A stretch of DNA of 52,821 bases from Piscinibacter sp. GTDB lineage: Bacteria > Pseudomonadota > Gammaproteobacteria > Burkholderiales > Burkholderiaceae_C. Made by a program: the position numbers and the translations under genes. Position 1 is the first letter of the stretch. Each line of letters begins with the position of its first letter. Below the pieces are notes generated by a model that saw only the letters and a program-made list of their open reading frames with translations, was not told the DNA's origin and made no database searches. The stretch lies in assembly GCA_019635485.1 (NCBI GenBank), contig JAHBZL010000037.1, forward strand, positions 1-52,821, read 5' to 3'. This document shows positions 8,252-36,874 of this stretch, one piece after another.

Positions 8252-9613
8252 ATGTCCTCACGCTGCGCGCTGCTGGCATCCGATCCCGACGCCGTCGCGG
8301 CGCGGGCGGTGCTCGATGCGCTGCGCGGCGACGCGCGCTGGCAGGTCGAGGTGTGCGCCCCGGGCGAGGCCGCGGCCCTGCCGGTGCAGGCGCTGCTGCT
8401 GACCGTCGACCCGCCCGGTTTCGCGGGCACGCTCGCGCGGCTCGGCGAGCTGCAGCGCGAGCACCCGCGCGCCGCCGTGCTGGCCGCCGTGCACGGTCTG
8501 GACGACCACCAGCTCGCCGCGCTGCTCGACGCGGGCGTGCGCGACTTCGTCGTGATGCCGTTCGCGGCCCCCGAGTTGCAGGCGCGCCTGCAGCACGGGC
8601 TGCTGGCCGCGCCGCATGGCCCGGCTCCGGTGGCCGCCGCGCAGCCGCGCCTGCGCGACTTCATCGGCGAGAGCCCGCTGTTCCTGCGCCAGGTGGCCAA
8701 GCTGCCCGTGTACGCGGCCTGTGACGCCGGGGTGCTGATCGTCGGCGAGACGGGGACCGGCAAGGAAGTCTGCGCGCAGGCCGTGCACTACCTGTCGGCG
8801 CGCGCCGCGCGCCCCTGGGTGGCGGTGAACTGCGGCGCGATCCCGAGCGAGCTGATCGAGGACGAGCTGTTCGGCCACGTGAAGGGCGCCTACACCACCG
8901 CGCTGGCGCCGCGCCCCGGGCTGGTTCGCGAGGCCGAGGGTGGCACGCTGTTCCTGGACGATATCGACTGCCTGCCGCTGCCCGCGCAGGCGAAGCTGCT
9001 GCGCTTCCTGCAGGAACGCGAGTACCGGGCGGTCGGCAGCAACGCCGTGCAGCGCGCCGACGTGCGGGTGATCGCGGCGAGCAACCTGCAGCTGCCGCAG
9101 CTGGTGGCATCAGGCCGTTTCCGGCAGGACCTGTACTTCCGCCTGAACGTGCTGACGCTGGAGTTGCCGCCGCTGCGCGAGCGCAAGGAGGACATTCGCG
9201 CGCTGGCGCTGCACTTCCTGCGCGGCTTCGCGCTGCAGTTCGAACGCCGCCTCGACGGCCTCACCGCACAGTCGCTGCAGCGGCTGCTGGCGCACGACTG
9301 GCCGGGCAATGTGCGCGAGCTGCAGCACGTGATCGAGCGGGCGTCGGTGCTGGCGGCCGGGCCGCTGCTGGCCGCCGACGACATCGAGATCGACGCGCAC
9401 GGCGGTGAGCCGCAGCCGGTCGATTCCTTCCAGCGCGCCAAGGCGCGCGTGGTGCAGCAGTTCGAGCGGCGCTTCATCGAGCAGTTGCTCGCGGCCCATG
9501 GCGGCAACGTCACCCATGCGGCCCAGGCGGCGCAGAAGAACCGCCGCGCCTTCTTCGAGCTGATGCGCAAGCACCGCATCGAGCCGCAGCGCTTCCGCGC
9601 TGCGGCTGCCTGA
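8252..9613 (+). CDS. Sigma-54 dependent regulator of the eCIS (pseudo-receiver, AAA+, Fis HTH)
   Basis: A 453-residue NtrC-like protein. Residues 1-120 have receiver-like shape, but the phosphoacceptor position is Thr51 (LLLTVDPPG instead of LLDLxMPG) and the conserved Lys is Met (VVMPF), so it is probably not phosphorylated. Residues about 135-370 are the sigma-54 AAA+ domain: Walker A GETGTGKE, Walker B TLFLDDID, LNVLTLELPPLRER and WPGNVREL. The loop that contacts sigma-54, normally GAFTGA, reads GAYTTA (residues 212-217). The C terminus (about 415-450, NVTHAAQAAQKNRRAFFELM) is a Fis-type HTH. It sits 311 bp upstream of the first operon gene, which has a perfect sigma-54 promoter with an activator-like inverted repeat and IHF site. 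It is therefore the likely cis-acting regulator of the injection system. Confidence 0.88.
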   Translation: MSSRCALLASDPDAVAARAVLDALRGDARWQVEVCAPGEAAALPVQALLLTVDPPGFAGTLARLGELQREHPRAAVLAAVHGLDDHQLAALLDAGVRDFVVMPFAAPELQARLQHGLLAAPHGPAPVAAAQPRLRDFIGESPLFLRQVAKLPVYAACDAGVLIVGETGTGKEVCAQAVHYLSARAARPWVAVNCGAIPSELIEDELFGHVKGAYTTALAPRPGLVREAEGGTLFLDDIDCLPLPAQAKLLRFLQEREYRAVGSNAVQRADVRVIAASNLQLPQLVASGRFRQDLYFRLNVLTLELPPLRERKEDIRALALHFLRGFALQFERRLDGLTAQSLQRLLAHDWPGNVRELQHVIERASVLAAGPLLAADDIEIDAHGGEPQPVDSFQRAKARVVQQFERRFIEQLLAAHGGNVTHAAQAAQKNRRAFFELMRKHRIEPQRFRAAAA

Positions 9614-9717: not shown

Positions 9718-9752
9718 GGACATTTCCGTGCGCGGGCAGGACGGAAATGTCC
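9718..9752. promoter_or_regulatory. Perfect 11-bp inverted repeat, candidate activator (UAS) site
   Basis: GGACATTTCCG at 9718-9728 and CGGAAATGTCC at 9742-9752 are exact reverse complements with a 13-bp spacer; the arm centres are 24 bp apart. The site is AT-richer than its surroundings and lies about 150-185 bp upstream of the predicted start of the eCIS operon transcript, the usual distance for enhancer sites of sigma-54 activators. A 9-mer inside it (GGGCAGGAC, 9734-9742) recurs inverted at 9809-9817. The adjacent Fis-HTH regulator is the obvious binder; this is inference. Confidence 0.6.
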
Positions 9753-9848
9753 GACCCGCCGTAACGGGGGCGCCTGGCGCGCGCGACGTCGTCGGCTCGG
9801 ACAAGAGCGTCCTGCCCGACCGGCGATCGGCCATCGGCGGCCTCGTCG

Positions 9849-9861
9849 AATCAAGCACTTG
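9849..9861 (+). promoter_or_regulatory. IHF-binding site
   Basis: AATCAAGCACTTG matches the IHF consensus WATCAANNNNTTR at every fixed position. It lies between the candidate activator site and the -24/-12 promoter, at about -54 to -42 from the predicted start, exactly where IHF bends DNA in sigma-54 promoters. It is one of the few AT-containing stretches in the spacer. Confidence 0.65.
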
Positions 9862-9876
9862 CGCGAGCCGCCGGCG

Positions 9877-9892
9877 TGGCACCGCGCTTGCG
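9877..9892 (+). promoter_or_regulatory. Sigma-54 (-24/-12) promoter of the eCIS operon
   Basis: TGGCACCGCGCTTGCG matches TGGCAC-N5-TTGC perfectly, with GG at 9878-9879 and GC at 9890-9891 exactly 10 nt apart. Transcription should start near 9903, giving a 22-nt leader before the ATG at 9925. Together with the IHF site, the upstream inverted repeat and the adjacent NtrC-like regulator this is a complete enhancer-type promoter. The remainder of the 311-bp gap 9614-9924 holds no gene I can support. Confidence 0.85.
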
Positions 9893-9924
9893 ATCCTCCG
9901 GGGCAATGCACTGCCGCCACGGAC

Positions 9925-10218
9925 ATGCCGATCGACGACGTCACTTCCGCACTGGTGCGGGCGCTGGCGCGCTATCTCGGCCTGCACCCGCAGGCAAGCG
10001 ATACGGCGCAGGGCATCGCGCGCTGGTGGCTGGCGGATCAGGCGCCGGTGCGCGAGGCCGCGCTGCTGCGGGCGCTGGAGTGGCTCGAGCGGCAGCGACT
10101 GGTCGAACGGGTCAGCGCCCCGGACGGCCGCGTGCGCTTCCGCCGCAGCGATGCCGCGGACGGCGCCGACTGGCCGACGCGCGCCGCGCGGGCGCTGGCC
10201 GGCCTGCCCCCGCCATGA
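9925..10218 (+). CDS. Small eCIS-operon protein with possible winged-helix fold
   Basis: A 97-residue protein, first gene after the sigma-54 promoter. It has no membrane segment or signal peptide. The pattern helix-helix-helix (VTSALVRALARYLGL, TAQGIARWWL, EAALLRALEWLERQRLVERV) followed by a short beta-rich part (SAPDGRVRFRRS) looks like a winged helix, but I do not recognise a named family. The start at 9925 is picked because the frame further upstream runs across the promoter and is Arg/Pro-rich. There is no strong ribosome binding site. Small proteins of this sort commonly head eCIS loci; it could be a regulator of the particle genes or an assembly factor. Confidence 0.6.
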   Translation: MPIDDVTSALVRALARYLGLHPQASDTAQGIARWWLADQAPVREAALLRALEWLERQRLVERVSAPDGRVRFRRSDAADGADWPTRAARALAGLPPP

Positions 10219-10693: not shown

Positions 10694-12262
10694 ATGCCCA
10701 CGTACCTGACTCCCGGCGTCTACATCGAGGAACTGCCGAGCGGCTCGCGGCCGATCGAAGCCGTCGGCACTTCGACCGGCTGCTTCCTCGGCTACGCCGT
10801 GCGCGGCCCGCTGACCACGCCGACGCTGATCGGCAGCTGGGACGACTACGAGCGCAGCTTCGGCAGCCTGCGTCTGGACACTGAGGCGGTCACCGGCGCT
10901 GCGGCGCCGCTGGGCGACCCGCTCGGCCATGCCGTCAGCGCCTTCTTCAGCAACGGCGGCACCAAGGCCTACATCGTGCGCCTGGCCGCCGCGGCGGTGA
11001 CGGCGACGCAGAGCCTGAACGACGGCGGCGTGATGCTGACCGTCGACGCCGCCAACCCGGGCACCTGGGCCAACGGCCTGGTGCTGCGCCTGACCGAACG
11101 CACCGAAGGTGCGGCCACCGTGTTCGACGCCCGCGTCGGCCGCGTCGACGGCAGCACCTTCCGGGTCGACGAGGCGCTCGGATCGGTGGTGCCCGAGGCA
11201 GGACGGCCGAACTCCATCGGGGCCGTGATCAACAGCGCCTCCAGGCTCGTCCGCGTGAGCGTGCCGGCCGGACGCGAGGCGGCGCTGCGCACCCACCTCG
11301 AGTCCGCCGCCGGGCCGGTCGACGTGACCCTCGGCAGCGGCACCAACGGCACGGCACCCGGCACGACCGAGTTCCAGGCCGCGTTCGCCGCGTTGGCACG
11401 CGTGCGCGACGTCAACATCGTGCTGCTGCCGGGGCAGTACTGGAGCGGCACCGGGCGCGCGCTGATCGAGCAGGCCATCACGCATTGCGAGGCGATGCGC
11501 AACCGCATGGTGATCGTCGACCTGCCGCCGGGGCAGGAGCTCGACAACGAGGAGGAGGTGAACAACCTCGACCTCAGCACCTCGACCTACGCGGTCAGCT
11601 ACTACCCCTGGCCGCTGGTCGCCAACCCGTACTACAGCCCGGACCCGAACCCCGCCACCGGCGCCGGCCCGGGCCAGCCGCGCACGGTGCTGGTCTCGCC
11701 CGCGGCGATGGCCGCGGGCCTGTGGGCCAAGACCGATGCGCGGCGCGGCGTGTGGAAGGCGCCGGCGGGCATCGAGTTCGGGCTGGTCGGCGTGAGCGCG
11801 CTCGAGTTCACGGTCGACAACACCGAGCAGGACTTCCTCAACCCGGCCGGCGTCAACGCGCTGCGCCGCATGCCCGGCTTCGGCCCGGTGGTCTGGGGCA
11901 CGCGCACGCGCTCGACGCGTGCCAACCCGGAATGGCGCTACGTGCCGGTGCGGCGCACCGCGATCTTCATCGAGGAGAGCATCTCCGGCGGCATCCAGTG
12001 GGCCGTGTTCGAGCCGAACGACCACCGGCTCTGGTCCTCGCTGCGCGCCAACATCGAGTCGTTCATGAACGGCCTGTTCCGCGTCGGCGCGTTCCAGGGC
12101 GAGAAGGCCACCGACGCGTACTTCGTCAAGTGCGGCCTGGGCCAGACCATGACGCAGGACGACATCGACCGCGGCCAGGTGATCGTGCTGGCCGGCTTCG
12201 CGCCGCTGAAGCCGGCCGAGTTCGTGATCGTGCGCATCCAGCAGAAGGTCGGCCAGCAGTAG
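10694..12262 (+). CDS. eCIS contractile tail sheath protein
   Basis: A 522-residue phage tail sheath family protein. The N terminus PTYLTPGVYIEELPSGSRPIE (residues 2-22) is the classic sheath opening; AFFSNGGTKAYIVRLA follows near 82-97. The C-terminal domain contains NALRRMPGFGPVVWGTRT near 389-406, WRYVPVRRTAIFIEESI near 417-433 and LGQTMTQDDIDRGQVIVLAGFAPLKPAEFV, the inner-sheath signatures. It corresponds to Pvc2/Afp2-type sheath subunits that contract to drive the tube. Only one sheath gene is present, whereas PVC and Afp carry three paralogues. It is immediately followed by the tube gene, the usual order. Confidence 0.96.
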   Translation: MPTYLTPGVYIEELPSGSRPIEAVGTSTGCFLGYAVRGPLTTPTLIGSWDDYERSFGSLRLDTEAVTGAAAPLGDPLGHAVSAFFSNGGTKAYIVRLAAAAVTATQSLNDGGVMLTVDAANPGTWANGLVLRLTERTEGAATVFDARVGRVDGSTFRVDEALGSVVPEAGRPNSIGAVINSASRLVRVSVPAGREAALRTHLESAAGPVDVTLGSGTNGTAPGTTEFQAAFAALARVRDVNIVLLPGQYWSGTGRALIEQAITHCEAMRNRMVIVDLPPGQELDNEEEVNNLDLSTSTYAVSYYPWPLVANPYYSPDPNPATGAGPGQPRTVLVSPAAMAAGLWAKTDARRGVWKAPAGIEFGLVGVSALEFTVDNTEQDFLNPAGVNALRRMPGFGPVVWGTRTRSTRANPEWRYVPVRRTAIFIEESISGGIQWAVFEPNDHRLWSSLRANIESFMNGLFRVGAFQGEKATDAYFVKCGLGQTMTQDDIDRGQVIVLAGFAPLKPAEFVIVRIQQKVGQQ

Positions 12263-12290: not shown

Positions 12291-12800
12291 ATGGCAGCCC
12301 CGATGTTCCCGGTCAACACGCACCGCTTCGACCCCTACCGCACCTTCAAATTCCAGGTCCTGATCGACGGCAAGCCGGTCGCCGGGCTGAAGAAGATGGG
12401 CGCCCTCAAGCGCAAGACCGAGCCCATCAAGTGGCGCGCCGCCGGCGACCCGACGCAGGAACGCATTCTGCCCGGCGGCACCAGCTACGAGCCGATCACG
12501 CTCGAGCAGGGGCTGTCGCACGACCCCGTGTTCGAGAACTGGGCCAACCTCGTCAACAACATCGGCGGCGATGCCGCGATGTCGCTGAAGAACTTCCGCA
12601 AGGACATCGTCATCAACGTGCTCAACCTGCAGGGGCAGGTCGCGCTTTCGTACAAGGTGTTCCGCGCCTGGGTCTCGGAGTACCAGGCGCTGCCCGAGAT
12701 GGACGCCGGCACGATGAACGCGGTCGGTATCCAGACCATGACGCTGCAGCACGAAGGCTGGCAGCGCGACACGGCGGTGGCCGAGCCGGCCGAGAGTTGA
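12291..12800 (+). CDS. eCIS tail tube protein (T4 gp19-like)
   Basis: A 169-residue phage tail tube protein of the T4 gp19/Pvc1 type. Recognisable features are FPVNTHRFDPYRTFKFQV near the N terminus, the GLKKMGALKRKTEPIKWR block, PGGTSYEPITLEQGLSHD near 58-75 and the C-terminal QTMTLQHEGWQRD. It stacks as hexameric rings inside the sheath. A SD (AGGAG) precedes the ATG at 12291, 28 bp after the sheath gene. This is the only canonical tube gene; a second tube-like domain is in the gene at 17913. Confidence 0.95.
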   Translation: MAAPMFPVNTHRFDPYRTFKFQVLIDGKPVAGLKKMGALKRKTEPIKWRAAGDPTQERILPGGTSYEPITLEQGLSHDPVFENWANLVNNIGGDAAMSLKNFRKDIVINVLNLQGQVALSYKVFRAWVSEYQALPEMDAGTMNAVGIQTMTLQHEGWQRDTAVAEPAES

Positions 12801-15276: not shown

Positions 15277-16311
15277 ATGGCCGTCGTCGTCTCCTCGCTG
15301 TCCTCGGTGTGCCGCCAGTTCGGCCAGCGCGTCTCGGCGCGCATCAACACGCCGACCAGCACGCCGGTGCAGGTGCTGGTCGGCACGCCCGCCGCGGCGG
15401 TGCCGGCCGAGAGCGACGACGTGCAGCGGCTGAACCTGTTCTTCTTCCGTTTCGAGCCGTCCGGCTTCTTCCCGGACAAGCTGCCCGGCGAGCCCTGGCT
15501 GCTGCGCATGCACTGCCTCGTGACGCCCTTCTGCGTGGACGAGGACGGTGTCGGCGCCGGCGAGAACGACCTGCGCGTGCTCGGCGAGGTGCTGCGCCTG
15601 TTCCAGGAGGAGCCGGTGCTGAGCATGACGATCGAGGGCCAGCCCTTCCTGCTGCAGGCGGTGTTCTGCACGCTCGGTCTGGACCAGCTGAACCAGCTCT
15701 GGTCGACGCAGGGCGACACGGTGTATCGGCCTTCGGCCCTGTTCGAGGTTTCGCTGGCGCCGGTGCTGCCGCGCGAGGAGGCGCTGCCCGCGCCGCTGGT
15801 CGGCAGCATCGGCTTCGCCGCCCGCGCCACGCTGGCGGCACGCCACGGCCTGCCGGACACGGCCGAACTGGGCGTGTTCGTCCCGCTCGTGCAGCGCAAC
15901 GCCCCCGACACGCGCGTCGAGACCTGGGCGCCGGCGCTGTGCCTGGTCGACGCGGGCGACTGCCTGCGCTCGGCGTCGCTCGCGCTCGGCAGCCCGGCGC
16001 TCACGGCCTTCGCGCCGGCCGCCTGGGTCGCCGGCGCGCCGGGCAGCGAGGTCACGCTGCAGTGGCAGGTGTGGAGCGCCGCGGACGGCTGGCAGCCCTC
16101 CGGCACACCGCAGACCGTGACGCTGGTCGACCCTGCGATCGACCCCGACCGCACCGCCGGTGCCAGCCTACAGACGCTGACGCTGCCGTTCCGCAACCGG
16201 GCCGGGCAGATGCTGCTGAGCGCGCAGCGCAGCGTCGCGCGTGCCGGCGACGGTGTGATCGTCGTCGTGCGCAGCGACCCCGTGCTGATCACCCTGTTCG
16301 AGGCGCCCTGA
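15277..16311 (+). CDS. DUF4255 tail terminator/cap protein (Pvc16/Afp16-like)
   Basis: A 344-residue protein. Residues 1-190 match the DUF4255 family: MAVVVSSLSSVCRQFGQRV, LFFFRFEPSGFF near 52-63, LGEVLRLFQEEPVL near 103-116, TLGLDQLNQLWSTQGD near 133-148 and YRPSALFEVSLAPVLP. In PVC/Afp particles the DUF4255 protein forms the terminator that caps tube and sheath and fixes length. The extra 150-residue C-terminal part contains beta-rich sequence (GSEVTLQWQVWSAADGWQP) and may be an Ig-like extension. Its stop overlaps the start of the ATPase gene by one base, so the two are coupled. Confidence 0.9.
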   Translation: MAVVVSSLSSVCRQFGQRVSARINTPTSTPVQVLVGTPAAAVPAESDDVQRLNLFFFRFEPSGFFPDKLPGEPWLLRMHCLVTPFCVDEDGVGAGENDLRVLGEVLRLFQEEPVLSMTIEGQPFLLQAVFCTLGLDQLNQLWSTQGDTVYRPSALFEVSLAPVLPREEALPAPLVGSIGFAARATLAARHGLPDTAELGVFVPLVQRNAPDTRVETWAPALCLVDAGDCLRSASLALGSPALTAFAPAAWVAGAPGSEVTLQWQVWSAADGWQPSGTPQTVTLVDPAIDPDRTAGASLQTLTLPFRNRAGQMLLSAQRSVARAGDGVIVVVRSDPVLITLFEAP

Positions 16312-17675: not shown

Positions 17676-17919
17676 GATCGAGCGGCTCGCGCTGACCCTG
17701 CCGGCCGGCTTCGCGCCGCGTGCCGCGCGGCTCGCACGGCTCACCGCGCGGGTACTGGCCGCGCAGCCGCTGCCTCAGGGGACCGTGCTGCCCTCGGTGC
17801 ACCCCGCGCCGCTGCGCCTGGATCCGCGCCGCTCGGATGCCGCGCTGGCCGGCGCGATCGCACGCCACATCGCCGCCGGCATCACGCAGGCCGCGGCGGA
17901 CGGGAGCCCGTCATGCTGA
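17668..17919 (+). CDS. Small conserved eCIS protein
   Basis: An 83-residue protein overlapping the ATPase gene by 8 bp and the next gene by 7 bp, which strongly supports translation. The N terminus IERLALTLPAGFAPRAARLARL resembles small proteins seen next to the ATPase in other phage-tail-like loci; the rest is Ala/Arg/Pro-rich and mostly helical. I know no function. Position suggests an accessory subunit or chaperone for the ATPase or tube initiator. Confidence 0.65.
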   Translation: MTEIERLALTLPAGFAPRAARLARLTARVLAAQPLPQGTVLPSVHPAPLRLDPRRSDAALAGAIARHIAAGITQAAADGSPSC

Positions 17920-18560
17920 ACGAGGTGCGCGGCTTCCTGATCGAGTACGCGCTGGCGCTGCCGCCGCTCGTGCTGGCCTTCGAGTTCAACCCGCAGCAGA
18001 TCACGCGCAACCGCAGCGTCACCATCACGCTCGGCTCGACGCCCGCCACACGCGGCGGCTACGACTTCGCGCTGCCCACCGAGACCGCGCGGGTCGCGCA
18101 GGGAGTCTCGGTCGAGCCGGAGAGCTTCGACGTCGAGATCCTGCTGGACGTCACCGACCGCATGAACGACGGCGACGCGATCGCGCGCAGCGTCGGCATC
18201 GAGCCCGAGCTCGACACCCTGCGCAGCATGTGCGAGCCCAAGTCGCAGGGGCCGCTCGGGCTGCAGACCCTGGCCAGCCTCGGCCTCGGTGGCGCGCGGG
18301 CGTTCCAGAAGAACGAGACCGCCTCGGTGCTGCTGTTCGTCTGGGGCACGCATGTGCTGCCGGTGTTCCTCAAGGCGGTCGACGTGACCGAGTCGTCGCA
18401 CCTGCCGACGCTGGTGCCGTACCGCGCGACGGTCAAGCTGACGCTGCAGGTGATCGAGGGGCGCAACCCGTTCTACGTCGCCGAGAAGGTGCGCCAGGTC
18501 GCCTCCGCGGCGCTGAACACCGGCCGCACCGCGGCCGCCGCGATCGGAGGGCTGCTCTGA
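17913..18560 (+). CDS. CIS tube-like initiator protein (N-terminal domain of Pvc7/Afp7 type)
   Basis: A 215-residue protein. The block LVLAFEFNPQQITRNRSVTI near residues 19-38 is typical of the CIS tube domain, a tube-like fold that links hub to tube. Further typical features are FDVEILLDVTDRMNDGD and a C-terminal ATVKLTLQVIEGRNPFY. In Afp7/Pvc7 this domain is fused to a LysM domain; here the LysM part is a separate downstream gene whose ATG overlaps this gene's stop (TGATG). It would form the first ring between the spike hub and the tube. Confidence 0.85.
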   Translation: MLNEVRGFLIEYALALPPLVLAFEFNPQQITRNRSVTITLGSTPATRGGYDFALPTETARVAQGVSVEPESFDVEILLDVTDRMNDGDAIARSVGIEPELDTLRSMCEPKSQGPLGLQTLASLGLGGARAFQKNETASVLLFVWGTHVLPVFLKAVDVTESSHLPTLVPYRATVKLTLQVIEGRNPFYVAEKVRQVASAALNTGRTAAAAIGGLL

Positions 18561-20088: not shown

Positions 20089-20910
20089 ATGGGCGACATG
20101 AACCGCGAACTGGCGCAGGTGCTGCGCGACCCCCGCGTGTTCGGCAAGTACCGCGCGCTGGTGGTCGACAACGACGATCCCGACAAGCGCGGCCGCCTCA
20201 AGCTGCGCGTGCCCGCGCTGCTGGGCGACCAGACGAGCAACTGGGCGCTGCCCAGCTTTCCCTGCGGCGGCCTGGCCGGGCAGGGCTGGTACGCCGTGCC
20301 GGCGGTCGATGCGCAGGTGTGGGTCGAGTTCGAGGCCGGCGACCTCGACCAGCCGATCTGGACCGGCGTGTTCTGGCAGCAGGCCTCCGACGTGCCGGCC
20401 GAGGTGCAGGGCGGCCCGCCCAGCACGACGCTGATCAAGACCGGCAAGGGCCACAAGCTGTTGCTGGAGGACCAGGACGACGCCGAAGCCGTCGAGCTGG
20501 TGCACAGCGGCGGGGCCAGCATCACGATCGACAAGAACGGCACCATCGCGCTGACGGACCAGGGCGGCGCGAAGGTCACACTCGATGCCGACGCCGGCCA
20601 GATCCTGATCGAGGACACGAACGGCAACTCGATCGCGCTGACCTCCTCGGGCACCAAGCTGGAGGACGGCAACGGCAACCAGATCGAGACCACCGCCTCG
20701 GGCATCACCGTCAAGGGCGCGCAGATCGTGCTCGACGGCACGCAGGTGATGCTGGGCGGCAGCGGCGGCGAACCGGTGATCAAGGGCACCAGCTTCCTGA
20801 CCCTGTTCGCCACCCACGTGCACACCTGCACCGCACCGGGCAGCCCGACCTCGCCGGCGATCCCGCAGGGCGAGATGAGCAGCCTGTCCTCCAAGGTGAT
20901 GGTGGCCTGA
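20089..20910 (+). CDS. Baseplate spike protein (gpV/VgrG-like) with HxH tip motif
   Basis: A 273-residue spike. Residues 18-95 form the OB-fold (YRALVVDNDDPDKRGRLKLRVP, WYAVPAVDAQVWVEFEAGD, QPIWTGVFW). Residues about 110-235 have short alternating beta repeats (SITIDKNGTIALTDQGG, QILIEDTNGNSIALT, QIVLDGTQVML), which would form a trimeric beta-helix needle. The end has HVH at 243-245 followed by TCTAPGSPTSP, as in P2 gpV-type spikes whose HxH residues bind a tip iron ion. No separate PAAR tip gene is seen in the locus, consistent with a self-pointed spike. Confidence 0.92.
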   Translation: MGDMNRELAQVLRDPRVFGKYRALVVDNDDPDKRGRLKLRVPALLGDQTSNWALPSFPCGGLAGQGWYAVPAVDAQVWVEFEAGDLDQPIWTGVFWQQASDVPAEVQGGPPSTTLIKTGKGHKLLLEDQDDAEAVELVHSGGASITIDKNGTIALTDQGGAKVTLDADAGQILIEDTNGNSIALTSSGTKLEDGNGNQIETTASGITVKGAQIVLDGTQVMLGGSGGEPVIKGTSFLTLFATHVHTCTAPGSPTSPAIPQGEMSSLSSKVMVA

Positions 20911-20928: not shown

Positions 20929-21336
20929 ATGCCTCGTTTCGGCCACCTCGCCGCCCGGCGCCTGTCGGATCCGCCCTACCTGGCGTTCCCGCTGCGCATC
21001 GATGGGGCGCAGCCGGCGCTCGCGACTCGCGCCGGCCACGTGCGTGGGCAGATCGAACAGGTGCTGTTCACGGTGGCCGGCGAGCGGGTGTTCCGGCCCG
21101 AGTTCGGCGCCGGGCTGAAGGCGCTGCTGTTCGAGCCGAACGCCTCGCCGCTGTGGCAGGTGACGCAGCGCCGCCTCGCCGCGGCGCTGGCCGAGGCGCT
21201 GGCCGGCGAGGTCGACCCGAAGTCGCTCGAGGTCGAGGTGCGCGGCGACGACGCGCAGCTCGTCATCCGCATCGCCTACACGCTGGCTGCGATCGGCCGG
21301 CGCGAGGACCACCTGTTCCGCCTCGGGGGCGCGTGA
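20929..21336 (+). CDS. Baseplate wedge protein, gp25/gpW family
   Basis: A 135-residue gp25-like protein. GHVRGQIEQVLFTVAGERVFRPEFG near residues 36-60 contains the ER...P.FG lysozyme-like wedge signature, and LEVEVRGDDAQLVIRIAYTL is the usual C-terminal strand block. It corresponds to Pvc9/Afp9, which binds the first sheath ring to the baseplate. Its stop overlaps the ATG of the next gene by one base. Confidence 0.92.
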   Translation: MPRFGHLAARRLSDPPYLAFPLRIDGAQPALATRAGHVRGQIEQVLFTVAGERVFRPEFGAGLKALLFEPNASPLWQVTQRRLAAALAEALAGEVDPKSLEVEVRGDDAQLVIRIAYTLAAIGRREDHLFRLGGA

Positions 21337-30400: not shown

Positions 30401-30933
30401 TCAGCTCCAACGACAGCGAGGTCACGCTGGCCGACAACCGCGTCTTCGGCGAGGTGCTGCTGATGAACCAGCTCGAGCGCGCCGGCACCGGCGTGCCCGC
30501 CGCGCAGGTCGGCGTGGACCCGGAGCTGGCGACGCTGAACCGCGTGGACGGAGATGTCGGATTCATCGTGGGCGGGCGCTTCGTCTGCCGCGGCAACCGC
30601 ATCCTGCGGCTGCGCTGCCTGGTGCCGCAGGCCCAGGTCACCAGCGGCCGACTGGCGGGCAACGTGCGTTGCTTCGCGCAGGCGGTGCTGGACGGCAACC
30701 AGCTCGTCGGCTACGGCCACTCGCTGGCCGCGCGTGCGCTGCAGGTGAACGGCAACGACTTCGACAACGGCAACCCGGGCCGGCCGCGGCCGACCTCGCG
30801 CTTCTTCTGCGCGCGCACCACCTTCGCCGGCAACAGCGCGAGCTTCGCCGACGAGTTCACGCCGACCTTCATCAGTGCCGAGCCGAACGGCGTGGCGGCG
30901 ACGCTGTTCCTGGTTCGCCGCTTCCCGTCATGA
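27496..30933 (+). CDS. Giant DUF6519-type fibre-like protein
   Basis: A 1145-residue protein. The N terminus QISRDSFRPAANYAGVYLQ and QGRMIVDADWNE (4-35) mark the DUF6519 domain found in phage-tail-like loci. Residues about 430-650 hold degenerate repeats around V-x-x-AL-D-x-LC (NVQAALDALC, TVQDALDKLC) with Cys and LNA-x-LP copies. An EF-hand-like loop DVDGDGRATVKD lies at 495-506. Residues about 650-830 look like a beta-helix. Residues about 859-905 form a Lys/Ala-rich histone-H1-like segment, followed by a second beta-helix region to the end. It probably forms a fibre or large baseplate appendage; target binding is inference. It overlaps the next gene by 4 bp (ATGA). Confidence 0.8.
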   Translation: MKTQISRDSFRPAANYAGVYLQQGRMIVDADWNEATAIANARLEAALRDAVASGAPRLGGLAIVPAGSGVAIRPGALYVEGVPARLAGTADITLLGQPDYAHAPALPGGGNFRLYADVWERCITGIEDDGLLDAGLHGADTATRTRTLLQVKWCADGIDPADPAQNPPLGNAALALQLRQIAVDASDPCNPCAAELEVDEPVGNYLFRVEVHDVFTGTDGHPHLWLKWSRDNGAEAYTPETFPAGFDQGDWVWEYFDSDSENLLGHHFPAGQARRRGVLVESFDASRPAGTPGRFVRQWDGFAEIDLSSHTLLQGADRGVTLSAGLGADAHGAFRFGARPNAVSLNLELFRLELVIVGTTFVAGDYWQVPVRQATDASGDWLLGSASTGEPPRGPRHHYLPLARVSGGVLTPPADVAQADAESRRFHFPPLTDLRAADIGFTPTCAGLYGSAPNVQAALDALCSIGAEDIAYTPATCAAVPSVRSLLGTVPGYPDVDGDGRATVKDQLDALLCHLNAARLPYDGSTSLARWRDVLENPAGAAPTTAQQAIDVLLNQFDSSDLRHTLNGCVGNADMPRTVSELLALGTGEQPLSTLLNRLFCELNATHLPLRKGTLACADLRTDASVLTVQDALDKLCESAGDGCEVSVAPGQLESRLREFQASTLRDLSLCLLPGAHNIAAALQIGGKRALRIRGVAPNACVIVVDNLLVELGAEEIVLEGLFVRASRAAQLQLNSARASVSRCNLQRSGSVEGERPFVRVGTRTQMCQLAWRDNFMIDTWTRTTPIGNVLTDAATLGNVTLAEQFRGILDDPSLFNDPERFDRQVGGVLDTLESLPVEQRVAVADAIQRSVLGGASAPVKRVAAKTAVKGAVKGAAKAAPKAAAKTTRAVASKKAAAAATAPGQAIGRATVSIDRLGGNLLQKDGTSNVVLRDELLRAAVQRDALQEAIVGGLLAVVTETGNNIALAISSNDSEVTLADNRVFGEVLLMNQLERAGTGVPAAQVGVDPELATLNRVDGDVGFIVGGRFVCRGNRILRLRCLVPQAQVTSGRLAGNVRCFAQAVLDGNQLVGYGHSLAARALQVNGNDFDNGNPGRPRPTSRFFCARTTFAGNSASFADEFTPTFISAEPNGVAATLFLVRRFPS

Positions 30934-32519
30934 AGGTCCTGCAGCGGCGCCGCCGCACCGCCACCCGGCCGCCGCGTGCCGCGCGCACTGCGGACGCCGC
31001 GTCGCCCGAGCTCGCCGAGCAGAACCGCGTACGCGTCGCGCAGGCGCTCGGCGCGCCGGTGCAGGCGCGGCTGAAGCTCGGCGCACCCGACGATGCGCAC
31101 GAACACGAGGCGGACCGCTTCGCCGACGGTGTCGTGCAGCGCCAGTGCGCGGATTGCGCGCGGCAGGAAGACGACGAAACGCTGCAGCGCCGGGCCGAGC
31201 CGGGTGCTGCCGGCGCCGGCGGCGGCGAAGTGGCTGCGGGCACCGCCGCGGCGATCCAGGGGCAGCGCGGCGCCGGTACGCCGCTGCCGGCGGCCGAACG
31301 CAGCTTCTTCGAAGCGCGCCTGCAGACGCCGCTGGCCCCGGTGCGCCTGCACACCGACCCGGCCAGCGCGCAGCTGGCGGAGTCGCTGGGCGCGCGGGCG
31401 TTCACCGTCGGCCACGACGTGTTCTTCGGCGCCGGCGAGTACCGGCCTGCGAATCCGGACGGGCGGCACCTGCTGGCGCACGAGCTGGCGCATGTGCGGC
31501 AGCAGTCCGGCGCGACGCTGCGGCGGCAGGCCGACACGGAGACGCCCCCGGCCGCGACCCCCCCGGCGCCGGAAGTCCTGCCGGTCGTCGACCGCACGAC
31601 CTTCGAGCGCCGGGTGAGCGACGGCATCGCCCTGCTCGGCGGGCGCTTCGTTGGCGGTGGCACGCTGGCCGGCGAGCTGCAGCCGATCCTTCAGGCGCTG
31701 ACCGAAGCGGCGGCCTGGAGCGACGAGCACGGCCGCGAGCGCGGCGGGCGCATGCTGCGCCGGCGCGTCGGCGGCGTGATGCTGAGCCTGCGCATGGTGT
31801 TCGACGACACGGCGGCGCCGACGCGCGATGCGATGTTCCAGAGCCGCGGCGCCGACGAGGGCCTGTTCCGGATCTTCGTGCGCCGGGCGGAGACCCCCGA
31901 CGACGTGGCCGCCAACCTGTACCACGAGGCGCTGCACCTGGTCACCTGGCTGTCCAATCGCGAGCGGCCGGCGGCGTTCGAAAGCCGCGCGGCCGTGGAG
32001 GTCACGCGCACGCTCGACCTGTCGCGCCACAGCGCCGGCATCACCACCGTGCAGCGCTGGCTGCAGCGGCTGGCCGATGGGGTGAACGCGCGGCGAGCGA
32101 GCGGCGACACGATTCCCGCCGCCCGCCTCGAGCGCATGGCCCGCTGGCTGGTCGAGGAGGTCGCGGTGCGGGCCGAGACCGAGGTGTTCGCCCAGCTGCG
32201 CGAGCGCGAGACCGGCAGCGTTTCGTCGGGCCTGGACCGCACCCTCGATGGCGCGCCGATGGAGGTCAACGACCGCACGGTGATGCAATACGTGTTCGAG
32301 TACAGCGAGGTGTTCCGCCTGGCCGACCGGGCCGCCCTGGACGGGCTGGACCGCGAGGCGCTCGCCATGCTCACCCGCATCCTCGGCGGGCTCTACCGCA
32401 CCATGGTGCGGCGGCGCTTCAGCCCGATGGCAGCGCCGATGCGGCCCGAGCGGCCGCATGTCGACATCGGGCCGATGCTGCCCGGCCATCGATCGTTCCT
32501 GCCGCTGCCGGAGGAGTAG
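30930..32519 (+). CDS. DUF4157 eCIS protein with a second HExxH metallopeptidase-like motif
   Basis: A 529-residue protein, ATG overlapping the previous stop. A basic, disordered N terminus precedes the eCIS-core DUF4157 module (about 70-205): GAPDDAHEHEADRFADGVV near 51-69, PVRLHTDPASAQLAESLGARAF, GHDVFFGAGEY and HLLAHELAHVRQQ with HELAH at 184-188. A second, separate domain follows a Pro-rich linker and carries HEALH at 332-336 (NLYHEALHLVTWLS), with EEVAVRAETE later as possible third metal ligand. DUF4157 proteins are strongly linked to eCIS and often carry toxin domains, so this is a probable cargo protease. I do not recognise the exact peptidase family. No secretion signal is present. 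Confidence 0.82.
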   Translation: MKVLQRRRRTATRPPRAARTADAASPELAEQNRVRVAQALGAPVQARLKLGAPDDAHEHEADRFADGVVQRQCADCARQEDDETLQRRAEPGAAGAGGGEVAAGTAAAIQGQRGAGTPLPAAERSFFEARLQTPLAPVRLHTDPASAQLAESLGARAFTVGHDVFFGAGEYRPANPDGRHLLAHELAHVRQQSGATLRRQADTETPPAATPPAPEVLPVVDRTTFERRVSDGIALLGGRFVGGGTLAGELQPILQALTEAAAWSDEHGRERGGRMLRRRVGGVMLSLRMVFDDTAAPTRDAMFQSRGADEGLFRIFVRRAETPDDVAANLYHEALHLVTWLSNRERPAAFESRAAVEVTRTLDLSRHSAGITTVQRWLQRLADGVNARRASGDTIPAARLERMARWLVEEVAVRAETEVFAQLRERETGSVSSGLDRTLDGAPMEVNDRTVMQYVFEYSEVFRLADRAALDGLDREALAMLTRILGGLYRTMVRRRFSPMAAPMRPERPHVDIGPMLPGHRSFLPLPEE

Positions 32520-32528
32520 GGCCCCACG

Positions 32529-35500
32529 ATGCAGGCCCGCGCGACGCTCCCTGCGCCGGCCGTGGCCGCCCGGGCGCCGCGCCGCGTGCCGCCCGTGAGC
32601 CTGGTGGCTGGCCTGCCCGGCGTGCTGCCGCGCCTGAAGATCGGCGCCCGCCACGACCCGCTCGAGCAGCAGGCCGACCGCATGGCCGAGCGCGCGCTGG
32701 CGCACGAGGCGCCGCAGCGTCCGGCAGGCGCGGCGTTGCCGATCGCGCCGCCGGCCGCGTCCGGAGCCGCGCCGGCTGTCCCGGCATCGCCGCCGGGCGA
32801 CTCTGGCGCAGCGCCGGCACGCCCCGGCCTCCTCGAACGCCTGCGCCGTGCGCTGCGTTTCGGCCGGCCGCTGCCGGAGCCGGTGCGCGGCGAGATGGAG
32901 GCGCGCTTCGGCAGCGACTTCTCCGCGGTGCAGATCCACACCGACGCCGCCGCGGCCGACGCCGCGCAGGCGCTGAACGCGCACGCCTTCGCGCTCGGCG
33001 AACACGTGGTCTTCGCCGAAGGGGCGTTCCGGCCCGAGACCGGGACCGGTGCGCACCTCGTCGCGCACGAACTGGCCCACGTGGTGCAGGCGCGCGGTGC
33101 GGCGGGTGACCCGGAGCCGGCGCTGCGGCGCGACGAGGGCGAGGAGCCGGGCTTCTTCGCCAGCCTGTTCGACACTGCCGGCGAGTTCATCGCGGCGCAG
33201 GGCTGGTCCCTGCTGCGCCGCTTCGCGCCGGCGCTGGAGCCGATCCTGCGCCGCGGCCCGGTCGACTGGCTGCGCGACCAGCTCGCCGCGGCCTTCGACG
33301 GCGTCGTCGCCACGCTGAACCGGCTCACGCCCGCCGGCGCGCTCGATGGACTCGGCACGCTGTTCGGCGGGCTGCTCGAACGCGCCGGGCGCATCGTCGC
33401 CGCACTCGTCGCGGGCGACTGCCAACCGCTGTTCGACGCGGTGAACGAATTGAAGACCTTCGTCACCGAGGTGGCCGGCGCGGCCTGGGAGCGGCTGACG
33501 GAATTCCTGCAGCCGGTCGGCGACTTCTTCACGGATCTGTGGAACAGCACCGGCGCGCCGGCCGTGCAGTGGCTGCAGGAGTTCGCGGGCGACCTGTGGG
33601 GCCGTCTGCAGCAGCTCGGGCGCGACGTGTGGGACTGGACGCGCCCGATCCGCGACGCCGCGGCGTCGGCCTGGGACTGGGTGAAGGGCCTGATCTTCGG
33701 CCACGAGGCCGACGACGAGGGCGACAGCTCCGAGGGTCTGGTCGGCTGGATCACGCGCAAGGCCGGCGAGGCCTGGGACTGGGTCAAGGAGCAGACCCGG
33801 CCGGTCTGGCAGCCGGTGGCCGACGCCGCGCAGCGCATCGCCGAGTTGATCCCGCCGCCCTTCCTGCGCGACCTGTCGACCCAGATGCAGCAGCTTTCCG
33901 GCGACCTGAACGCGACGGCCGGTGAGATGGAGGAGGGCGCGGCGGGCCGGCCGATCGCCGAGAACCGCGACGCGCTGGCCGCCGCGCTGCCCTCGGTGCA
34001 GCAGATCATCGCGCGCGTGCGCGGCTTGCTGGTGGGCGCCGGCACCTGGCTGCTCGAGAAGCTCGGGGCGCTGGGCAGCGGCGTCGCCACCTTCCTCGGC
34101 CGGCTGCGCGCGAGCAGCCTGCTCGCGCTGCTGGCCAACGGCCTGGCCTGGCTGGAGGACGCGGCGCAGCGTCTGCTGGCCTGGGCGACCGAGAAGGTGC
34201 TCGGCCTGTTCGGCGCGCTGGTGCAGGGGTTCGATGCGCTGACGCCGTTCTTCGAGAACATCCTGAACACGGTGCGCCGCGTCATCACCGTGATGGGCGA
34301 CCTGCTGCAGCTGCCGCAGCTCGTGCTGGGCGCGGTCTGGCGGCTGATCCCGGAGTGCATCCGCGAGCCGGTGAAGAACTTCGTGCTGCAGCAGATCCTC
34401 GGCCGCATCCCGGTGTTCGGCCAGTTCTTCACCAACCCCGACCTGTGGGCGCGCGTGCAGCAGACGGCGCTGGAGATCCTGCGCCAGGTGTTCGTCGACG
34501 GCGACATCCCGCGTGCCGCCTGGACCTTCTTCCAGGCGATGCTGCGCGTGCTCGGCCTGCCGCCGGAGCTGGTCGTGCGCATCCTGGCCAAGGCGGCGCA
34601 GGCGATCGGCGACGTGCTGGCCGACCCGATCGGCTTCCTCGGCAACCTGCTGCGCGCGATGCGCGCCGGCTTCGGCCTCTTCTTCGACAACGTCGGAACG
34701 CACCTGCTCAACGGCGTGGCCGGCTGGCTGTTCGGCCACCTCGCGGCAGCGGGCATCCGCCCGCCGGCGGACTTCTCGCTGCGCTCGATCCTCGGCTTCG
34801 TGCTCGAGGTGCTGGGCATCACGGTGGAGAACGTGTTCCGCCGCCTCGGCGAGCGCGTCGGCGACGCCACGGTGCAGCGGCTGCGCCGCATGCTGGACGT
34901 GGCCAGCGGCGTCTGGTCCTTCGTGACCATCCTCGTCAACGAGGGCCCGGCGGGGCTGTGGCGCGAGATCCAGGAGCGCCTGTCGAACCTGTGGGATTCC
35001 GTCGTGCAGGGCGTGATCGGCTGGATCACCGATCGCGTCATCGTGCGCGCGACGCAGTGGCTGCTCTCGCTGCTGGACGCGACCGGCATCATGCCGATCA
35101 TCAACACGCTGATCGCGGTCTACAACGCGATCGAGTCCTTCATCCAGTACCTGCGCGAGATCCTCGAGATGGTCTCGACGGTGCTGGACGGCGTGATCGA
35201 CATCGCGCGCGGCCAGATCGACGCGGCGGCGGGCTTCCTCGAGCGCGCGCTGGCCGATTCGCTGCCGATCGCGATCGGCTTCCTCGCCAACCAGTTCGGC
35301 CTGGGCAATATCGCGCAGCGCATCCAGGAGCTGATCGCGCCGGTGCGCGAGCGCATCGACCAGGCGATCGACTGGCTGATCGACCGCGCCATCCGCCTCG
35401 GGCAATCGTTGCTGGACATGGCGCGGCGCGGCGCGTCGGCGGTGCGCGGGGCGGTCGGGCGGCTGCGCGAATGGTGGCGCGAGCGCTTCGGCTTCCGCGC

Positions 35501-36488
35501 CGCGGACGGGTCGTCGCACGCGCTGTACTTTCGCGGCACGGGCAGCGCCGCGGCGCTGATCGTCGAGTCGGACCCGGAGCCGTTCCGCGACTTCGTCGCG
35601 CGCCAGCCGGACGGGCCGGACAAGACCGAGGCCCTGCGCCTGTACAACCTGCTGCGCCAGAAGCAGGACGAGGCGGTCGCGGCCGGCGCCGCCTCCGGCG
35701 GCGCCGGGCATGCGGCGGGCAGCGGGGCCGGGACCGCCGGCACCACGCTGGGCGCCGAGATCGCGACGCTGATGGAGCAGCTCGCCGTGGTCACCGGGCG
35801 GCTGATGCCGCGCGGCTCGGCGGCCGACGAGCCGCCCGCCTGGGGGCCGACCACCGCGCAGGGCTTCGGCACCGACGCCTCGGTCGTCACGATGACCAAC
35901 GCGGCGCTGGCGGTCTGGCCCGACGGCAGCGCCCCGACCAGCGCCACCGAGGGGCTGGGCGACTGGCAGCGCCTGCTCAAGCGCCGCAACGACAACACCG
36001 GCGTCTCGTCCTACTACGTGCGCGGCCACCTGCTGAACCACAACATCGGCGGGCCGGGCTCGACCTGGCAGAACCTGACGCCGCTGTCGCAGGAGTCGAA
36101 CAACCGCGGCGGCATCGAGTCCATGCTCGGGCGCTTCGAGCGCCCGGTGAAGGAGGAGCTGCGCGCCGGCAAGACGGTGCGCAACTTCCACGTCCGGCCC
36201 AACTACGGCGGCGGCAGCCGCGGCACCCAGTTGCAGCGCATCGACCGCGAGATCCAGATCCGGCGCGGCGAACGCAGCGACGCGCCGGTCGCGCCCGCGC
36301 TGGACGAGGCCCACCTGCAGGCGATCCGCGGCGCGGTCGACGCCGAGCAGTCGATCCCGCGCTCGATCACCTGCAGCGCGGTGATCGAGGCGAGCAACGG
36401 CAACCGCCGCGCGATCAACGAGGTCGTGGACAACACGCCCACCTTCACGAGCGGCGACGAATGGACCCGTTACCGCGTCAACCCCTGA
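32529..36488 (+). CDS. DUF4157 eCIS cargo protein with C-terminal RGHL nuclease-like domain
   Basis: A 1319-residue protein. Residues about 35-190 contain the DUF4157 module: HDPLEQQADRMAERAL near 44-59, VQIHTDAAAADAAQALNAHAF, and HLVAHELAHVVQ with HELAH at 180-184. Residues about 205-970 are long amphipathic and hydrophobic helices rich in Trp and Leu (for example VKGLIFGH, AWDWVKEQTRPVWQP). Residues about 1090-1319 form the C-terminal domain with YVRGHLLNHNIGG (RGH at 1165-1167) and NLTPLSQESNNRGG (1182-1195), the spacing expected for a DNA/RNA non-specific (beta-beta-alpha-metal) endonuclease, His1167 being the likely general base. It is the best toxin candidate here. A tape-measure-like role for the helical middle is possible. 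Confidence 0.82.
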   Translation: MQARATLPAPAVAARAPRRVPPVSLVAGLPGVLPRLKIGARHDPLEQQADRMAERALAHEAPQRPAGAALPIAPPAASGAAPAVPASPPGDSGAAPARPGLLERLRRALRFGRPLPEPVRGEMEARFGSDFSAVQIHTDAAAADAAQALNAHAFALGEHVVFAEGAFRPETGTGAHLVAHELAHVVQARGAAGDPEPALRRDEGEEPGFFASLFDTAGEFIAAQGWSLLRRFAPALEPILRRGPVDWLRDQLAAAFDGVVATLNRLTPAGALDGLGTLFGGLLERAGRIVAALVAGDCQPLFDAVNELKTFVTEVAGAAWERLTEFLQPVGDFFTDLWNSTGAPAVQWLQEFAGDLWGRLQQLGRDVWDWTRPIRDAAASAWDWVKGLIFGHEADDEGDSSEGLVGWITRKAGEAWDWVKEQTRPVWQPVADAAQRIAELIPPPFLRDLSTQMQQLSGDLNATAGEMEEGAAGRPIAENRDALAAALPSVQQIIARVRGLLVGAGTWLLEKLGALGSGVATFLGRLRASSLLALLANGLAWLEDAAQRLLAWATEKVLGLFGALVQGFDALTPFFENILNTVRRVITVMGDLLQLPQLVLGAVWRLIPECIREPVKNFVLQQILGRIPVFGQFFTNPDLWARVQQTALEILRQVFVDGDIPRAAWTFFQAMLRVLGLPPELVVRILAKAAQAIGDVLADPIGFLGNLLRAMRAGFGLFFDNVGTHLLNGVAGWLFGHLAAAGIRPPADFSLRSILGFVLEVLGITVENVFRRLGERVGDATVQRLRRMLDVASGVWSFVTILVNEGPAGLWREIQERLSNLWDSVVQGVIGWITDRVIVRATQWLLSLLDATGIMPIINTLIAVYNAIESFIQYLREILEMVSTVLDGVIDIARGQIDAAAGFLERALADSLPIAIGFLANQFGLGNIAQRIQELIAPVRERIDQAIDWLIDRAIRLGQSLLDMARRGASAVRGAVGRLREWWRERFGFRAADGSSHALYFRGTGSAAALIVESDPEPFRDFVARQPDGPDKTEALRLYNLLRQKQDEAVAAGAASGGAGHAAGSGAGTAGTTLGAEIATLMEQLAVVTGRLMPRGSAADEPPAWGPTTAQGFGTDASVVTMTNAALAVWPDGSAPTSATEGLGDWQRLLKRRNDNTGVSSYYVRGHLLNHNIGGPGSTWQNLTPLSQESNNRGGIESMLGRFERPVKEELRAGKTVRNFHVRPNYGGGSRGTQLQRIDREIQIRRGERSDAPVAPALDEAHLQAIRGAVDAEQSIPRSITCSAVIEASNGNRRAINEVVDNTPTFTSGDEWTRYRVNP

Positions 36489-36499
36489 GGAGCAAGACC

Positions 36500-36874
36500 A
36501 TGACCGACGACATCACCCGGGACCGGCTCGCCGCCGAGCCCTTTGCCTTCGCGCTCGTGCAGTGGCCGGCGCTGGTCGGCGCGCTGGCCTGGGACGGCCC
36601 GGGCTGGGAGTCCGCCGGACGCTGGGCGATGGTCGCCTGGCTGGCGTTGACGGTGCTGGCCGGGTATTCGGGGCGCCGGCCGGCGGCCTTCGGGAATCTG
36701 CTGGTCCTGCTGCTCGTCGTCGTGGGGTTCGCATGGTGGACAGGCCCCGGCGCCGTGCAGCTCGCGTGGCTGCCGCCGCTGCTCGTCGGGCTGTATGCGG
36801 CGCAGCGCGCGCGGCTGCGCCCGGCGACGGCCGCGCCGCCGGCTCAGCCCGCCGGCCGGACGACGACGGTCTGA
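36500..36874 (+). CDS. Small membrane protein closing the eCIS operon
   Basis: A 124-residue protein with three or four hydrophobic segments: about 18-33 (weak), 43-57, 65-82 and 84-101, and a basic, Pro/Ala-rich tail ending GRTTTV. A SD (GAGGAG) lies between the nuclease stop and the ATG, 11 bp apart. I do not recognise a family. Its place right after the nuclease-like gene allows two readings: an immunity or protection protein, or a holin-like factor for particle release. Its last 31 bp overlap the end of the FAH gene on the other strand. Confidence 0.6.
   Translation: MTDDITRDRLAAEPFAFALVQWPALVGALAWDGPGWESAGRWAMVAWLALTVLAGYSGRRPAAFGNLLVLLLVVVGFAWWTGPGAVQLAWLPPLLVGLYAAQRARLRPATAAPPAQPAGRTTTV

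Follow-up and report, generated by a model that had tools for sequence, protein, structure and literature searches.

Introduction

How is an eCIS operon switched on, and could sigma-54 be part of the answer? The accessible part of Geller et al. 2021 names eCIS regulators of the GerE/LuxR, BTAD and RfaH types and describes GerE as the first conserved regulator of eCIS; their genes lie beside eCIS operons, as here, and those named are not sigma-54 activators (PMC8213781). The main text of that paper holds no word starting with sigma (PMC8213781). Searching the titles and abstract openings of open-licence literature, we found no report of an eCIS under sigma-54.

A locus of Piscinibacter sp. raises the question anew. 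We analyzed a stretch of 52,821 nt (GCA_019635485.1, contig JAHBZL010000037.1, positions 1-52,821, forward strand; 73% GC), hereafter the window. A sequence-only reading had proposed sigma-54 control of an eCIS operon in the window, from a box, an IHF site and an inverted repeat lying in fitting order and distance. We conclude that 9718-9891 is very probably a sigma-54 (RpoN) promoter control region that would drive the eCIS operon from its first gene, g1, with an activator encoded upstream.

Results

The window carries an eCIS operon behind an activator gene

The operon is an eCIS: genes for the sheath, the tube, a Phage_base_V spike, gp25, Pvc16_N, two eCIS_core proteins and an AAA ATPase lie clustered (Table 1), and a Tail_P2_I match in the operon scores just below the Pfam cut-off. 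Among the ORFs scanned with Pfam, none matched a T6SS membrane-complex family. We do not claim a single transcript up to 41755, because an FAA hydrolase gene lies on the minus strand inside this span. The second gene, g2, has no relative at E 0.01 in the loci L002-L037. The NtrC-like gene noticed upstream is borne out by Pfam (Sigma54_activat, E 8e-60), and the layout proposed earlier also holds, the control sites sitting between this gene and g1.

Two neighboring features were seen on the way. The eCIS_core protein of 1319 aa (32529-36488) matches Endonuclea_NS_2 in its C-terminal part just below the cut-off and may be a nuclease cargo. Directly after the AAA ATPase gene, a MHYT-GGDEF-EAL protein is encoded at 41841-43946.

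Table 1. Features of the control region and the eCIS operon (positions in the window), and T6SS operons near g1 in other loci (positions in their own stretches).
Feature	Position	Strand	Basis
bEBP, probable cognate activator, 453 aa	8252-9613	+	Pfam Sigma54_activat 8.3e-60, AAA_lid_14
Activator site 1 (distal, weak), predicted, GGACATTTCCGTGC	9718-9731	+	2 mismatches vs GGACA-N4-TGTCC
Activator site 2, predicted, GGACGGAAATGTCC	9739-9752	+	1 mismatch vs GGACA-N4-TGTCC
Activator site 3 (proximal), predicted, GGACAAGAGCGTCC	9799-9812	+	1 mismatch vs GGACA-N4-TGTCC
IHF-type site AATCAAGCACTTG	9849-9861	+	exact match to presumed consensus WATCAANNNNTTR; starts 28 nt upstream of box
Sigma-54 -24/-12 box TGGCACCGCGCTTGC	9877-9891	+	exact TGGCAC-N5-TTGC, conserved
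Predicted transcription start (9903) and 22-nt leader	9903-9924	+	usual sigma-54 spacing
g1, first operon gene, 97 aa, putative winged-helix protein	9925-10218	+	alignment, AlphaFold2, Foldseek
g2, 137 aa	10238-10651	+	no Pfam match
Tail sheath	10694-12262	+	Phage_sheath_1, Phage_sheath_1C
Tail tube	12291-12800	+	Phage_T4_gp19 2.2e-37
Further eCIS genes, span	15277-41755	+	Pfam
Pvc16_N gene	15277-16311	+	Pfam
CIS_tube-like gene	17913-18560	+	CIS_tube match just below cut-off
Phage_base_V spike	20089-20910	+	Pfam
gp25	20929-21336	+	Pfam
eCIS_core, first protein	30930-32519	+	Pfam
eCIS_core, second protein	32529-36488	+	Pfam
FAA hydrolase gene	36844-37833	-	inside span of further eCIS genes
AAA ATPase	39428-41755	+	Pfam
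T6SS operon near g1, L166	4260-6875		
T6SS operon near g1, L172	5492-8219		
T6SS operon near g1, L173	5172-7887		

A sigma-54 box is conserved upstream of g1

A perfect sigma-54 box had been claimed, and we find the sole exact TGGCAC-N5-TTGC match of the window on the plus strand at 9877-9891, with the GG and GC of the -24/-12 element at the fixed spacing. Sigma-54 is encoded in the same genome (PF04552, E 1e-64; genome completeness 84%), which holds 17 exact boxes, the window's included, vs 3 for the reversed pattern. With -12 placed at the last C of TTGC, the usual sigma-54 spacing predicts a transcription start at about 9903. The Shine-Dalgarno sequence upstream of g1 appears weak, which counts against our reading. 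At one mismatch or fewer, the window holds 2 box matches vs 4.18 expected from shuffles; since this is not above chance, the position of the box and the comparison across loci carry the weight.

Searching with the window's sheath, we obtained matches in 67 of 399 genomes of the family and in 42 of 399 genomes of the order (own genome included in each). Wider stretches were taken for the best 40 of 67 non-own family places and for 20 of 42 non-own order places, mostly best-scoring first. This gave 61 loci including the window, of which 57 were usable after L047, L072, L124 and L126 had been excluded for lying too close to a contig end. A search of genome contigs for closer relatives returned only 5, all distant. 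We called g1 homologues by profile and scored the boxes out of 10 with GG and GC fixed.

A g1 homologue is present in 31 of the 57 usable sheath loci. In 28 of these 31, a box of at least 9/10 stands no more than 200 nt upstream of the g1 match, and the remaining three (L061, L112 and L114) have an 8/10 box, so the -24/-12 element to be looked for in orthologous loci is there. Among the 26 loci without g1, only L048, L053, L055 and L056 carry a box of at least 9/10 within 2.5 kb upstream of the sheath (Fisher p 7e-9 for the comparison, whose rows are related). Such boxes are rare off-site (37 in 1,377,150 strand-bases); among 100-nt tiles, promoters included, 0.6% contain a 9/10 box and 3.8% an 8/10 box. 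The activator was seen within the fetched stretch at 26/31 g1 loci vs 3/26 loci without g1; at 5/31 g1 loci it was not seen there, some of the stretches being short. As far as sequence tells, the conservation of the box at g1 loci supports sigma-54 control.

L053, L055 and L056 show a second sigma-54 arrangement at sheath loci, in which the activator has GAFTGA or GSFTGA and g1 is absent. A dyad near TGTCACAT-N4-ATGTGACA accompanies this set, and the first gene differs (DUF3467 in L055).

An IHF-type site recurs upstream of the box in part of the promoters

The claimed perfect IHF site was likewise recovered at 9849-9861: AATCAAGCACTTG matches exactly WATCAANNNNTTR, which we take to be the IHF consensus, and is the only match in the window at one mismatch or fewer (1.22 expected). 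We then looked at 47 promoters, up to 260 nt upstream, with boxes of 10/10 (n = 16), 9/10 (n = 24) and 8/10 (n = 7). Within 60 nt upstream of the box, WATCAANNNNTTR occurs exactly in 8/47 (0.08 expected) and at one mismatch or fewer in 21/47 (1.3 expected). Of these 21 sites, 14 are on the plus strand and start 27-30 nt upstream of the box; six are on the opposite strand, 30-42 nt upstream of it. The expectation that orthologous loci would share the site is thus borne out as an enrichment and fails as a rule: the site is missing from 26/47 promoters at this threshold, which counts against our reading. At the 16 other exact boxes of the own genome, taken as control, we found no exact site and one at one mismatch or fewer.

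The bending protein at 9849-9861 is probably IHF, and the own genome has two HU/IHF-family genes. Six of the 21 sites carry GCAC at their four inner positions, so a protein other than IHF could bind there. Shortly upstream of two other sigma-54 boxes of the own genome (L132, L133) we noticed CAAGGACTTG and CAAGTACTTG; sigma-54 promoters of this group may carry such an element more widely.

Predicted activator sites differ between activator clades

The inverted repeat noticed at 9718-9752 exists and is perfect (GGACATTTCCGT-N11-ACGGAAATGTCC), with arms of 12 bp instead of the 11 bp given. Comparison with relatives favours a different reading, in which the repeat consists of two out of three copies of a recurring 14-bp activator site. 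GGACA-N4-TGTCC occurs at 9718, 9739 and 9799, the last site being centred 71 nt upstream of the box. A single operator spanning the repeat was considered and replaced by two neighbouring dyads, because relatives keep the 14-bp unit.

We grouped the promoters by activator clade where an activator was read, and all left over formed the sister group. Three loci with no activator in the stretch (L061, L064 and L066) were put in the window's group partly by their sites, which is circular, and for this reason the count was repeated without them. In an exhaustive search for symmetric dyads (all 5-mers, spacings 0-10), GGACA-N4-TGTCC ranks first in the window's group (n = 11). At two mismatches or fewer, it gives 21 sites in 11/11 loci, with two or three copies in 8 of the 11, vs a mean of 1.1 and a largest count of 6 in shuffles that preserve base composition only. 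Where the activator was read in the window's clade, there are 15 sites in 8/8 loci (shuffle mean 0.8, largest 5), and 9 sites in 7/8 loci at one mismatch or fewer (shuffle mean 0.08). The two halves also pair at spacing 9 (16, vs 21 at spacing 4); these pairs are mostly the identical sites, extended outward by the longer GGCAGGAC/GTCCTGCC arm. A wider regulon in the own genome was rejected for lack of enrichment, GGACA-N4-TGTCC occurring there at 53 places vs 122 for the control, which counts against our reading.

The sister clade shows another dyad. Exact GGGT-N8-ACCC gives 25 sites in 18/22 loci with the activator read (shuffle mean 0.12), and 37 sites in 24/30 promoters of the whole sister group (shuffle mean 0.18, largest 2); it is absent from 4/22 and 6/30, respectively, which counts against our reading. 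Across spacings 0-15, GGGT/ACCC pairs in the sister group number 37 at 8, 11 at 12 and 0-2 elsewhere. An earlier candidate, GGGTCG-N3-CGACCC, reached 17 sites vs 8.3 in shuffles (largest 16), only about twofold, and GGGT-N8-ACCC was counted once the exhaustive search had revealed the right spacing. The dyads do not cross: GGGT-N8-ACCC was found in 0/8 loci of the window's clade, and GGACA-N4-TGTCC in 0/22 of the sister clade at one mismatch or fewer (3/22 at two or fewer, vs 2.2 expected). Site centres 66-76 nt upstream of the box are strongly favoured in the sister group (17/37 sites) and mildly in the window's group (5/21). On a quick tree of 38 activators, in which 13 of 35 inner forks are weak, the site class tracks the activator clade; the sets L053/55/56 and L038/39/45 seemingly have other dyads.

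The activator has an altered receiver-like domain and an altered sigma-54-contact loop

The activator has a receiver-like N-terminal domain (about 1-125), an AAA+ sigma-54 interaction domain at 138-303 (PF00158, with Walker motifs) and a Fis-type HTH near the C-terminus, whose HTH_8 match falls just below the Pfam cut-off. The N-terminal domain gave no Pfam match and resembles KdpE at E 0.002. In this alignment the phosphorylated Asp is replaced by Thr and the conserved Lys by Met, so the domain lacks the phosphorylatable Asp and Lys of an NtrC-type response regulator. With this Asp lost, conventional control of the activator by a histidine kinase is improbable.

The sigma-54-contact loop reads GAYTTA instead of GAFTGA. 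We read 38 activators, 35 of them at g1 loci, and the second Gly of GAFTGA is absent in 34 of these 35. The residue in its place is D in 26; in the window's clade (n = 8) it is T in three, H in three and S in two. The one exception, L062, has GAFSGA, a long branch and another site class, and the activator near it is probably not the cognate one.

What such changes do is known from NorR. In the accessible part of that study, changes of the second Gly can release the activator from its sensor domain: D or N makes the protein fully constitutive, activity persists with Q, S, C and M, and all other changes are non-functional (PMC2941729). Natural variants that would keep activity are listed for Desulfovibrio vulgaris as GAFTDA, GAFTHA and GAYTDA, and activators carrying them have assigned target operons; T is missing from that list in the part of the source available. 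The window's T is without direct precedent in these sources, because T failed in NorR and is missing among the D. vulgaris variants; GAYTTA is the main weak point of reading this protein as a sigma-54 activator. The H of some relatives finds no support among the NorR variants.

g1 is a putative winged-helix protein that also occurs near T6SS operons

The g1 protein of the window has no Pfam or NCBIfam match. Aligning 27 members, we find P22, D26, G30, W34 and W35 invariant besides the start Met, within a signature of its own, HPxAxDTxxGIxxWW. The AlphaFold2 model (pLDDT 88.8, pTM 0.81) has the winged-helix order of elements, and regulators of the Fur, MarR and PadR types predominate among the top Foldseek matches in the PDB, of which the best has E 0.008 and none reaches 0.001. 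From the model we interpret g1 as a regulator or a winged helix that binds protein. Its overall fold is like that of the Fur, MarR and PadR proteins, from which it differs by its signature, the missing family match and the modest Foldseek score.

Performing a g1 profile search outside the order, we obtained 12 further loci from 369 genomes of the class and 2 more usable ones from 398 genomes of the phylum; a weak phylum match (G1431, E 6e-5) was left out of these 14. In 13 of the 14, a box of at least 8/10 lies at most 183 nt upstream of the g1 match (at least 9/10 in nine of them). L172 has activator and g1, and no box was found there, which counts against our reading. The activator is in the fetched stretch at 9/14 loci and was not seen there at 5/14; a relative of the window's sheath is in the stretch at 8/14, and 2/14 stretches end too early.

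In three of these loci (L166, L172 and L173), g1 stands before a T6SS operon in which VipA (TssB) and VipB (TssC) are fused in one ORF of 663-703 aa, next to an Hcp gene. Of the three, only L173 combines activator, a 9/10 box and g1; L166 has g1 and an 8/10 box, with no activator seen. At L162 (g1 forward), activator, box and g1 lie at about 2100-2340 with a dnaX-like gene downstream, and no match to the window's sheath was found within about 8 kb; this is possibly a decayed locus or one with a different target.

A g1 search in plasmids gave no match. On plasmid pMTS1 of Cupriavidus sp. P-10 (NZ_AP025172.1; L174), the order of activator, GGACAAAGAAGTCC site, g1, sheath and tube is that of the window, and the activator is 62% identical to the window's over residues 137-449. 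Our script found no box at the 9/10 cut-off there. Reading by eye, we find AGGCCCGGCTTTTGC upstream of g1, an 8/10 box, and AATCAAGGATTCG, also upstream of g1, with one mismatch to the IHF consensus.

Discussion

Could the altered activator have ceased to work with sigma-54? It would then bind the dyads as a repressor or together with another sigma factor, and the box would be a remnant or be served by another activator. GAYTTA fits this, T at the second Gly being non-functional in NorR. The box is nevertheless kept at 8/10 or better in 31/31 usable g1 loci, across clades with differing dyads; a remnant would decay, so the kept box speaks against one. Together with the second-Gly variants in D. 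vulgaris activators that have assigned target operons, in the accessible part of that source, this makes such a loss of function improbable.

The repeat at 9718-9752 might alternatively terminate transcription of the activator gene or act as an RNA hairpin, with no enhancer role: it starts 104 nt past the activator's stop codon and a 12-bp stem is possible. No T run follows it, though, and a 12-bp perfect repeat is in none of the nine other group members inspected, whereas most relatives in the group repeat the 14-bp dyad itself. We regard a terminator or hairpin as very unlikely. That box, IHF-like site and repeat came together by accident in a window this rich in GC is the least credible explanation of all. 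The box count in the window, not above shuffles, would allow it, but the same placement recurs in dozens of loci, and this comparison refutes it.

Sigma-54 control could then work as follows. The activator (8252-9613) would bind the three GGACA-N4-TGTCC dyads (9718, 9739 and 9799) and assemble there into an AAA+ ring. A DNA bend, probably made by IHF at 9849-9861, would carry it onto RNA polymerase-sigma-54 at 9877-9891, where ATP hydrolysis by the activator would open the promoter for a start near 9903. In the simplest model, operon expression would be set by how much activator is present or by a modulator like g1. The sigma-54-contact loop of the activator is altered at a position at which certain substitutions relieve NorR of repression. 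Dyad binding by the activator, RpoN dependence, IHF as the bender, the start site and the signal are what we infer from the DNA.

Bernard et al. 2011 reportedly treats sigma-54 control of type VI secretion clusters. The mechanism as such is known, with the T6SS as precedent; for eCIS it is apparently new. Sfa2 with RpoN at the H2-T6SS of P. aeruginosa, and VasH in V. cholerae, likewise place a contractile injection machine under joint bEBP and RpoN control, as far as the accessible accounts go. RpoN control of a T6SS, a putative IHF site lying between the activator site and the promoter, is described in the available part of one paper (PMC8855297). Compared with Sfa2 and VasH control, the machine here is an eCIS, g1 comes first in the operon and the dyads are clade-specific; the loss of the second Gly of GAFTGA in the activator may be a further difference. 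According to the accessible part of the NorR study, norVW likewise has three enhancer sites upstream of its sigma-54 promoter (PMC2941729). NorR combines a GAF sensor with a wild-type GAFTGA; in the window's activator, by contrast, the altered motif is the natural state.

The promoter has a partner gene without a named family, g1, and there are hints of shared use by T6SS. A bEBP, g1 and the sigma-54 box might form a control cassette common to eCIS and T6SS with fused TssB-TssC, perhaps exchanged. Its activators would not be gated by phosphorylation (the second Gly is nearly always lost, and the working receiver is lost in the window), and g1, made first, would tune or end the burst. We offer this wider picture tentatively and think it rather unlikely to hold as a whole, the more so as all three parts are present in just one of the three T6SS loci.

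The switching on of eCIS is little described, and the present reading offers a testable answer for 31 of 57 sheath loci, in a sample biased to the best matches. Its elements are a defined activator, binding sites predicted at defined positions and a start site that is likewise predicted. Such control would tie eCIS to the same sigma-54 logic as the T6SS, with g1 as a sequence tag for finding such loci. Judged by their sequences, the activators appear to form a natural set in which the loop contacting sigma-54 is altered and DNA specificity is of at least two kinds.
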